Assembly: GCA_027490915.1 (NCBI GenBank) | Contig: JAIXXG010000014.1 | Span: 1 to 38,071, forward strand | Length of the DNA stretch: 38,071 bases | Direction: 5' to 3' | Source: Microbacteriaceae bacterium | Lineage (GTDB): Bacteria; Actinomycetota; Actinomycetes; Actinomycetales; Microbacteriaceae | Shown here: piece after piece, positions 2,786 to 30,472 of the stretch | How positions within the stretch are numbered: the stretch's first letter is position 1 | How the letters are laid out: every line of letters starts with the position of its first letter | The notes under the pieces: generated by a model | Told to the model about the DNA's origin: nothing | Databases searched by the model: none | Seen by the model: the letters and a program-made list of their open reading frames with translations, nothing else | Program-made: the position numbers and the translations under genes

Positions 2786-2828
2786 GCGGTCGTTCCTGGT
2801 CTCACCCGAAGAGACCAGGAACGACCGC
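2786..2828. repeat. Perfect 18-bp inverted repeat with ACCCGAA loop
   Basis: Arms 2786-2803 and 2811-2828 are exact reverse complements (outer bases GCGGTCG and CGACCGC) around a 7-base loop ACCCGAA. It lies in the leader of the minus-strand membrane protein and upstream of the plus-strand lipoprotein, i.e. between divergent genes, and no T-tract follows on either strand. It is not an obvious terminator; it could be an RNA structure, a processing site or a dyad binding site. Confidence 0.85.
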
Positions 2829-2843
2829 GCAATCAGGAGTGCG

Positions 2844-2868
2844 GCGGAGTCGACCCGAACGACTCCGC
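2844..2868. repeat. Second hairpin with the same ACCCGAA loop
   Basis: GCGGAGTCG (2844-2852) and CGACTCCGC (2860-2868) pair perfectly around ACCCGAA, the same seven loop bases as in the larger hairpin 15 bases upstream. On the minus strand both loops read TTCGGGT. The stems differ in sequence, so the loop is the shared element. Confidence 0.8.
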
Positions 2869-2883
2869 ATCTCCCGGATTCCT

Positions 2884-2917
2884 GCGGGCCCCCGGTGGTC
2901 CCCCGACCACCGCCCGC
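2884..2917. repeat. Third hairpin with a CCCC loop
   Basis: CGGTGGTC (2893-2900) and GACCACCG (2905-2912) pair around CCCC; outside this, GCGGG (2884-2888) and CCCGC (2913-2917) can extend the stem with a 4-base bulge on the left. Together with the two preceding hairpins it gives three structured elements in 132 bases. The remaining bases up to the next gene at 3076 hold no further gene that I can see, only a TAGAAT promoter hexamer at 3035. Confidence 0.7.
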
Positions 2918-3075: not shown

Positions 3076-3564
3076 GTGGCAACGAGCGTGAGCGCAGCAT
3101 CCCGTCATCGCGGGGCGGCCGTGGCGATCGTCGCGATCTGCGCGGCCCTGCTGGCGGGGTGCGCGGTGGGGGATGCCGAACCGGTGCCCACCGAGGCGCC
3201 GACCTCGAGCGCCGAGCCCTCGCCGACGCCGACGCCCGACCCCGAGTTCGTCGAGGGCGGCACCGCCGGGCAGAACCGCCCGTACTTCGAGTTCGTCATC
3301 AACGGTCTGCTCGAGCGCTCGGAGCGCCCGACGACCGCCACGATCGTGAACTCGCTCGCCGCCGCCGGATTCGATCGCGCGACGATCGAGATCACACCCG
3401 ACACGACCCCCGTCGGCGAGCTCGCCGACTCGATCCTGGTGGGCATCCCGATCGACGGGCAGTGCCTGCTCGGCCAGATCATCGACGGCGAGTTGGTGTC
3501 GCAGCTGGCCGACGTTCTCGGCACCGGCCGGTGCCTGGTGGGCCGCACAGCCTCTCTAGACTGA
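3076..3564 (+). CDS. Secreted lipoprotein, DUF6993-like
   Basis: The 162-residue product starts with a basic stretch and a hydrophobic helix ending in the lipobox LLAGC (Cys29), so it should be exported, lipid-modified and anchored to the outer face of the membrane. A Thr/Pro/Ser/Glu-rich linker (about residues 35-57) precedes a compact domain of about 100 residues containing FEFVINGLL and, near the end, two Cys (DGQCLLGQ and TGRCLVG) that could form a disulfide. The domain resembles DUF6993, a family of unknown function in Microbacteriaceae; that assignment is from memory. The start is GTG, with GGAGG about 18 bases upstream. The last codons overlap the -10 hexamer of ettA. Confidence 0.85.
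   Translation: MATSVSAASRHRGAAVAIVAICAALLAGCAVGDAEPVPTEAPTSSAEPSPTPTPDPEFVEGGTAGQNRPYFEFVINGLLERSERPTTATIVNSLAAAGFDRATIEITPDTTPVGELADSILVGIPIDGQCLLGQIIDGELVSQLADVLGTGRCLVGRTASLD
3557..3562 (+). promoter_or_regulatory. -10 hexamer of ettA (leaderless start)
   Basis: TAGACT sits inside the last codons of the lipoprotein gene, exactly seven bases before the ettA ATG. This places the transcription start at or next to the start codon, and there is no Shine-Dalgarno sequence. TCTC and GAGA flank the hexamer symmetrically. Confidence 0.6.
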
Positions 3565-18189: not shown

Positions 18190-19608
18190 ATGCACACGAC
18201 CGTCTTCGAGCGCCAGCGACCCGACGCCCGCCTCATCGCCGAGAGCCTCGAGGGCTCGCGGCTGCAGCCGTTCTGGCTCGACGACCTGCCCGAGCGTCCG
18301 GTTCGTCCGGCGCTCGCCGCGACCGTGCACGCCGACCTCGCCGTCGTCGGCGGCGGCTACACCGGGCTCTGGACGGCCCTGCTCGCCAAGCGCCGCACCC
18401 CCGACGCCCGCGTCGTGCTGCTCGAAGGCAAGCGCATCGGCTGGGCGGCGAGCGGCCGCAACGGCGGCTTCGTCGAAGCCACCCTCACCCACGGCGCCAA
18501 GAACGGCGAGACCCGCTTCCCCGACGAGCTCGCCACCCTCGACCGGCTCGGCATGCAGAACCTCGACGAGATCCAGGCGACCGTCGAGGCCGAGGGCTGG
18601 GCGTGCGACTTCGAACGGGTGGGCTCCTTCGCCGTTGCCACCGAGGCCTACCAGGTGGCCGAGCTCGAGGCCGCCCACGACGGCGAGCACGAGCTGTTCT
18701 ACGACGCCGCCGCGATGCGCGCGCAGATCAACTCGCCCACCTATGAGGGCGGGCTGTGGTCGGTGCGGGATACGGCGCTCGTGCATCCCGCAAAGCTCGC
18801 CGATTCTCTGCTCGGTGCCGTGCTCGATGCCGGCGTCGAGGTCTTCGAGGCGACCCCGGTGCTCGACCTGCGCGCCGAGCGCGACGCCATCGAGCTGCGC
18901 ACGCGCAGCGGCTCTGTGCGGGCCGACCGGGTGGCGCTCGCGACCAACGCCTTCCCGTCGCTGCTCAAGCGCTACCGCCTGCACACCGTGCCGGTCTACG
19001 ACTACGTGCTCATGACCGAACCGCTCACGGATGCGCAGCTCGCGTCGATCGGGTGGCAGGGTCGGCAAGGCGTCGCCGACAGCGCCAACCAGTTTCACTA
19101 CTACCGCCTCAGTGCCGACAACCGCATCTTGTGGGGTGGATACGACGCGATCTACCACTTCGGCGGGCGCATCCGCCCCGAGTACGACGACCGTCGCGAG
19201 TCGTACGAGACGCTCGCCAGCCACTTCTTTACGACCTTCCCGCAGCTCGAGGGCGTGCGGTTCACGCACCGCTGGGCGGGCGTGATCGACACGTGCAGCC
19301 GCTTCTGCGCGTTCCACGCGACCGCGCACCAGGGCCGCGTCGCCTACTCGGCGGGCTTCACGGGCCTCGGGGTGGCGGCCACCCGCTTCGCGGCGAACGT
19401 CATGCTCGACCAGCTCGCCGGCGAGACCACCGAGCGCACCTCGCTCGACATGGTGCGCAGCATGCCGCTGCCCTTTCCGCCCGAGCCCGCCACTTACCCG
19501 GCCGTGCAGTCGGTGCGCTGGGCGCTCGACCGCGCAGATCACAATTCGGGAAAGAGAAATGCGTTCCTGCGCACGCTCGACGCCGTGGGGCTAGGGTTCG
19601 ATTCGTGA
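18190..19608 (+). CDS. FAD-dependent amine/amino-acid oxidase of the DadA/PuuB type
   Basis: A 472-residue flavoprotein of the DAO superfamily. The FAD site is [21 protein letters not shown] (GxGxxG near residue 55), followed by [20 protein letters not shown], the conserved SGRNGG motif typical of gamma-glutamylputrescine oxidase (PuuB) and related oxidases. The C-terminal part contains [15 protein letters not shown] and [26 protein letters not shown], the second FAD-contact region. It probably oxidises an amine or N-substituted amino acid with O2 in the cytoplasm; the substrate is not evident, and no other polyamine gene is nearby. The start at ATG 18190 was chosen over in-frame upstream codons because the family N-terminus begins here. 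Its stop overlaps the start of the cupin gene (GTGA). Confidence 0.9.
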
Positions 19609-30438: not shown

Positions 30439-30472
30439 CGGTGCCCCCGCAGGTTGGGCTGCGGGGGCACCG
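30439..30472 (+). terminator. Terminator hairpin after the sigma-factor operon
   Basis: CGGTGCCCCCGCAG and CTGCGGGGGCACCG pair over 14 bases around a GTTGGG loop, 38 bases after the stop codon. No T-tract follows, as is common in this group. Confidence 0.75.

Follow-up and report, generated by a model that had tools for sequence, protein, structure and literature searches.

The window analyzed here, the whole stretch of 38,071 nt from a Microbacteriaceae bacterium of the genus Microcella (contig JAIXXG010000014.1), carries a candidate small-RNA gene, RNA A, between a minus-strand signaling operon and a divergent lipoprotein gene. The genus records used for comparison included M. pacifica, M. 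alkalica, M. putealis, M. alkaliphila and a Yonghaparkia. The features of the locus are as follows.

10-867, minus: PAS hybrid histidine kinase, N-terminal part (Pfam PAS), truncated by the contig end
867-1253, minus: stand-alone receiver domain protein (Pfam Response_reg, 3.5e-18)
1329-2711, minus: membrane protein with an H-box (LMHGPVQGRLAACVMALNF), the first gene 3′ of the RNA
2774-2928, minus: sRNA A gene, about 150 nt, with predicted ends; covariance model R1 matches 2774-2926 at 144.4 bits, the window itself being one of R1's 15 training rows
2786-2828, minus: hairpin H1, arms 2786-2803/2811-2828, 18 bp and perfect, loop 2804-2810 ACCCGAA (UUCGGGU on the minus strand)
2844-2868, minus: hairpin H2, arms 2844-2852/2860-2868, 9 bp, loop 2853-2859 ACCCGAA (heptaloop UUCGGGU)
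2893-2900/2905-2912, arms of hairpin H3 as read on the plus strand: 8 bp, loop CCCC
2884-2917, minus: hairpin P1/H3, outer helix 2884-2889/2912-2917, inner helix 2894-2900/2905-2911
2935-2940, minus: probable -10 element CATGAT (CANNNT lies 17-18 nt past TTGCNN in 23/23 genomes)
2958-2963, minus: probable -35 element TTGCGC, 17-nt spacer to the -10 element (TTGC fixed in 23/23 genomes)
2983-2997: dyad GTTCGCATTCCGAAC (RTTCG-N5-CGAAY), candidate regulator site about 60 bp 5′ of the start
3076-3564, plus: divergent lipoprotein, DUF6993 (Pfam PF22504, 9.8e-27)

An inverted-repeat check reproduced exactly the three stems of 18, 9, and 8 bp, with their positions and loops, that the first-pass annotation had read between the two genes, and it bore out that the first two hairpins share one 7-base loop (ACCCGAA on the plus strand, TTCGGGT on the minus strand). 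Among perfect hairpins of the window with loops of 3-9 nt, H1 is the longest, and a 15-nt linker (2829-2843) joins it to H2. Words reading TTCGGGT or ACCCGAA occur 11 times in the window, and a stem of at least 5 bp surrounds the H1 and H2 copies only. The folding energy was better than that of 200/200 dinucleotide shuffles on both strands (z of -8.4 for plus and -6.4 for minus). In the minus-strand fold, the inner helix of H3 has 7 bp and the outer helix continues across a GGGG bulge on the 3′ side. Since the UC and GA of the UC-GGGG-GA apex are paired, the loop of H3 is a GGGG tetraloop and differs from UUCGGGU.

When 60 genomes were searched at the DNA level, 20 had matches, and all strong ones were confined to the same genus. 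An alignment of the minus-strand RNA was made from fifteen genomes matched at the locus, leaving out weak matches elsewhere (including two other-family genomes at 1e-4), and it yielded a consensus of five helices with 42 pairs. In this alignment 95.1% of cells were paired vs. 88.3% after shuffling, 18 pairs showed two-sided change vs. 8.3, and the covariation score was 0.305 vs. 0.172, each of these values being attained in 0/500 shuffles; further pair types numbered 42 vs. 37.1 (7/500 shuffles). Control structures with slid partners paired 29-52% of cells. The outer helix of P1 (helix 1) was the weakest with 76.7% of cells paired, helix 2 reached 99.0% and H1 (helix 5) 99.6%, and in H2 (helix 4) two-sided changes were seen in 5/7 pairs. 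The first-pass annotation had proposed a structured RNA with diverging stems and a conserved loop presented for recognition, to be checked by aligning relatives and by a covariance-model search. The alignment supports it: covariation preserves the stems in the other genomes, their loops are invariant, and model R1 matched the RNA in 23/26 genomes of the genus, 15 of which had trained it. A 24th genome (G010) was recognized as carrying RNA A by its dyad and two UUCGGGU hairpins, and R1 found no match in G003 (99% complete) and G017.

UUCGGGU occurs twice in each of the 23 genomes though several stems are replaced wholesale, and in G018 the H1 loop carries one additional unpaired base. The P1 sequence TCGGGGGA and the H3 apex UCGGGGGA were each present in 21/23 genomes. 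When the UUCGGGU stems of the 23 genomes were read in the minus-strand sense, outward to the first other mismatch and with near-identical genomes counted, they comprised 494 Watson-Crick, 25 G·U, and 3 A·C pairs. The RNA is thus assigned to the minus strand, because the 25 G·U pairs found there would be A·C mismatches on the plus strand. Mean pairwise identity among 19 genomes (four near-duplicates excluded) was 0.63 within the RNA and 0.50 from the dyad to the start; among the same 19 it was 0.31 in the first 55 nt behind the RNA and 0.30 farther upstream. A scan of the window and 16 further loci with Rfam 15 returned tRNA only over the gathering cut-off, in line with the earlier statement that no named family fits. 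At E ≤ 10 two microRNA models matched near H1, both far under the cut-off, and were dismissed. In the open-access literature, searched for sRNAs of Microbacteriaceae, Microcella, and Clavibacter, for UUCGGGU, and for structured RNAs of Microbacterium, nothing on RNA A was found among the matches listed. Judged by sequence comparison, RNA A is a real structured RNA that is absent from Rfam 15, carries a recurring loop module, and probably represents a variant of a two-component-linked sRNA; the same kind of evidence establishes its conservation, strand, fold, and unchanged loops, as well as the promoter with its fixed dyad and the linked operon described below.

The 5′ end of RNA A is predicted to lie near 2926-2928 (GGAACA), downstream of the -35 and -10 elements, and its 3′ end at or just after H1, which is probably the 3′-end hairpin. 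A consensus scan of the window called no promoter and no terminator. Of the features of an intrinsic terminator, the strong terminal hairpin is present, and the tail that follows is poor in T (by a rough count, 1-5 of 15 bases are T); H1 is a probable terminator with a weak tail. Upstream, the end of the dyad sits 18-19 nt before TTGC in 23/23 genomes, vs. 3/11500 shuffled upstream regions with such a dyad, the pattern having been composed after inspection of the sequences. A search of the genus for GTTCGCAWTGCGAAC with one mismatch allowed found 22 sites in 15/26 genomes and none in the other 11. Twelve of these near-perfect sites are at RNA A or its G021 paralogue and ten are elsewhere; both sites of G021 adjoin its two RNA copies, and in the nine genomes with a single site it lies at the RNA in seven and off the RNA in two (G009 and G025). 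Outside the genus, a dyad (GTTCGCAGCGCGAAC) was noticed in Amnibacterium flavum (L270:2932-2946), 3′ of a gene distantly homologous to the membrane gene and followed by a T-tailed hairpin that lacks UUCGGGU.

The gene behind the RNA most likely begins at ATG 2711, a conserved protein start, which places the RNA upstream of it. Its product, the membrane protein, gave no Pfam match, and an orthologue gave no NCBIfam match. It ends in a histidine-kinase-like H-box and has no recognized ATPase domain; it is possibly a phosphotransfer or sensor partner. The kinase cut off in the window is complete in the relative G022, where a response regulator with a LuxR-like HTH follows it. The order RNA, membrane H-box protein, receiver, PAS hybrid kinase with receiver, and response regulator was found in 8/8 relatives, compared over 15 kb each, with G022 as the source of three of the queries. 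The response regulator has a receiver domain and a C-terminus that is weakly LuxR-like (GerE, E of 0.0013-0.17), and most of it can be aligned with FixJ, VraR, and RcsB. The distance from the model match to the first codon of the operon was 47-78 nt in 12/12 loci with sufficient upstream sequence, many of them from the same assemblies as the covariance search, and two more loci were cut by contig ends. The remaining six matches to the membrane gene were distant or short, and the two longest (L269 and L270) had no such RNA beside the gene.

The loop also recurs outside RNA A. In G021, a paralogue (L061 and L235) possesses P1, a terminal hairpin with the loop UUCGGGU and a T-rich tail behind it, and the same dyad at 18-nt spacing. 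Because a convergent gene faces this copy, it is not a leader. Genes adjoining these further loci were called by third-position GC, a crude method. A second sRNA candidate, RNA B, is located on the minus strand of contig C65 in G000 at about 18,500-18,710 (L188:1500-1712), where the same kind of dyad, its outermost base varying, is followed after 18 nt by TTG and then by an unrelated body. This body contains an invariant CCCCCCUUCAGGU (the C6 element) and a terminal hairpin with the loop UUCGGGU. All six loci with the C6 element (in G000, G007, G012, G016, G022, and G025) have the dyad at the RNA A spacing. Among 35 loci scanned for the dyad, most of them picked for a UUCGGGU-type hairpin, seven were positive, namely six of RNA B and the RNA A of G010. 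RNA B had no Rfam match, and in G000 it is not beside the two-component operon; a tRNA-Met lies near it in G000 and G016 and is absent from the fetched stretches of G012 and G022. A third type, RNA C (L277, L278, and L279 in G006, G013, and G014, with a related one, L195, in G010), combines a UC-GGGG-GA hairpin with UUCGGGU hairpins and stands behind a different operator-like sequence, TAACAAACG-TTG-TATG. By these predictions, second and third RNAs with the same loop exist in the genus.

To follow the loop across the family, a generic hairpin model with a UUCGGGU loop built on 30 stems (R2) was compared with a model of the same stems and one permuted loop (R3). At E ≤ 1e-6, R2 gave 39 matches in 34/299 family genomes, of which six had supplied training stems (13/16 genera had supplied none), and R3 gave none in the 299 (best 7.7e-6). 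Weaker matches mean little, since at E ≤ 0.01 the contrast was only 96/299 genomes for R2 vs. 48/299 for R3. At the level of the order, 31/297 genomes outside the family matched, with no E-value better than 1.1e-5. Tandem pairs of UUCGGGU hairpins were found in G338, G083, and G088. In genus g53 (L069:1580-1610 and homologues), a promoter-like TTGACA-TACCTT is followed directly by a long hairpin with the loop TTCGGGT; the whole reads as a very short transcription unit, and in L069 a convergent gene faces it. In genera g101 and g45 (L207 and L209), a TTCGGGT hairpin adjoins a mazG-like gene, named by eye, on the opposite strand.

Our preferred reading, to which we assign a probability of roughly 0.6, is that the region is a minus-strand sRNA gene with a regulator acting at the dyad and with hairpin tips as the active parts of the RNA. 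We infer its expression, 3′ end, regulator, partner, and effect as follows. The center of the dyad is about 60 bp ahead of the likely start, a location at which class I activators bind. Most likely it is the LuxR-like response regulator of the adjacent operon, suggested by adjacency only, that would bind the dyad at 2983-2997 in the place of such an activator and switch on transcription from the promoter (2935-2963). Three hairpins would then form in an RNA of about 150 nt that ends at or after H1, and partial read-through may supply the operon. The stems would serve as scaffolds for three tips, of which two are UUCGGGU and one is the UC-GGGG-GA apex; activity is ascribed to the loops since it is they that stay constant and recur. 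UUCGGGU opens with a YUNR U-turn motif, which may expose the following bases in a stacked form. Since one RNA offers several tips and unrelated RNAs of the genus bear these tips too, a single shared partner is suggested: either the loops would titrate an RNA-binding protein, in the manner of Gac/Rsm, or they would pair with mRNAs that contain ACCCGA-type sites.

A Gac/Rsm two-component system consists of a hybrid kinase and a LuxR-type regulator. Its sRNAs RsmX, RsmY, and RsmZ are described, in passages of PMC2375449, as having a repeated unpaired motif, several copies per genome, a palindromic upstream site, and two-component control. RNA A is similar in its repeated short motif, in the occurrence of several RNAs, in the upstream dyad at fixed spacing (23/23), and in the adjoining two-component operon, and by this analogy it probably works like those sRNAs. 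It differs in that its loop motif is UUCGGGU vs. GGA and in that it is encoded beside its supposed system. The unpaired GGA or ANGGA motifs of Csr/Rsm are absent from UUCGGGU, and the one GGA close to a loop belongs to the UC-GGGG-GA apex and is partly paired. CsrA (PF02599) was over the cut-off in 1/26 genomes of the genus (G018), some of which are incomplete, and below it in G013; the window's own genome had none. Because the GGA motif is not found in the loop and CsrA exceeds the cut-off in only that one genome, RNA A is not a member of the Gac/Rsm family. It is conceivable, though we regard it as doubtful, that Microbacteriaceae have a Gac/Rsm-like layer of their own, in which the Microcella two-component system drives at least two unrelated UUCGGGU sRNAs that titrate an RNA-binding protein. 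In that case the protein would bind the UUCGGGU hairpins found throughout the family.

The first-pass annotation had left the choice between a regulatory leader and a small RNA. Its placement of the element upstream of the minus-strand gene stands, and of its two proposals the small RNA is now favored. A cis-acting leader, in which the RNA would be the 5′ UTR of the operon and H1 a conditional attenuator with read-through governed by a protein or ligand that binds the loops, accounts for the position of the RNA on the same strand 47-78 nt ahead of the first gene in 12/12 loci and for the lack of a conserved promoter seen between RNA and gene. However, the 55 nt behind the RNA are at background identity (0.31), a convergent gene opposes the G021 paralogue, and RNA B of G000 has the same dyad and terminal loop away from the operon. 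The one alternative H1-H2 pairing considered (GUCGUUC/GAACGAC) is lost in the M. alkalica group and so is not preserved in all species. An independent sRNA is favored because the 55 nt behind RNA A are unconserved and the paralogue faces a convergent gene, and we consider a leader unlikely. Still less probable is that UUCGGGU is merely a stable loop that terminators of the family favor, with no partner. Some family hairpins do come directly after stop codons, like plain terminators, and RNAs A, B, and C each end in a hairpin with this loop, but it is rare among strong hairpins (0/22 in G022 and 1/50 in G419, 400 kb each), and the inner, non-terminal H2 has it in 23/23 genomes.

Two further readings have very little probability in our view. 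One of them, a target RNA whose two tandem stem-loops are bound by an ANTAR antiterminator, would fit the consecutive stem-loops next to a two-component operon, the G at loop position 4, and the 15-nt linker, which is within the 2-25 nt range of such RNAs. By passages of PMC8164766, however, such targets have hexaloops with A1 and G4, whereas those of RNA A are 7-nt loops with U1 and G4, and no ANTAR domain was found among the operon proteins scanned. The other, equally remote, is a function at the DNA level, with the elements serving as cruciform operators or as dispersed palindromes. H1 does form a perfect inverted repeat of 18 bp, and the genes on either side of it diverge, but where relatives depart from Watson-Crick pairing they do so by G-U on one strand (G-U 25, A-C 3), as would be expected of a folded RNA and not of DNA. 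Separately, dispersed palindromes were encountered in the samples from G419 (L101-L120), centered on GGAGGCGCGGTGCC-AGCT-GGCACCGCGCCTCC, with the loop AGCT in 12 over 400 kb. Mimicry of a tRNA-Pro(CGG) anticodon loop was tried and rejected, as the sole Pro tRNA in view has UUUGGGA and UUCGGGU ends in U; a CGG tRNA pattern was not found in the 26 genomes, the pattern probably being too strict.

The sRNA reading of RNA A has partial parallels in other known systems. The TwoAYGGAY motif consists of two hairpins with a common loop sequence. It appears in a table row in PMC2864571, assigned there to bacteria of the human gut, gamma-Proteobacteria, and Clostridiales. RNA A likewise has two hairpins with one loop sequence; the loop and the bacteria are different. 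6C RNA (RF01066) is an actinobacterial structured RNA with a repeated loop motif, which is a likeness to RNA A, and a CCCCCC element occurs in RNA B; neither of the two loci was matched by the RF01066 model. In the antisense systems hok/Sok and RNAII/RNAIII of pIP501, a YUNR U-turn may offer the bases that follow it, according to passages of PMC6562991. UUCGGGU similarly starts with UUCG, yet its loop is common to unrelated RNAs, and no target was found. The locus joins in one place an sRNA candidate, a promoter, a dyad whose position is fixed, a signaling operon, and an unchanging 7-nt loop on unrelated stems. To our knowledge, Actinobacteria have no well-understood sRNA chaperone and few sRNAs with a known mechanism. 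The locus poses directly the question of what binds UUCGGGU and could reveal a new RNA-binding regulator. Elsewhere in the window, at 30439-30472, there is a perfect 14-bp hairpin with the loop GTTGGG, located 200-400 bases from two tRNA genes.
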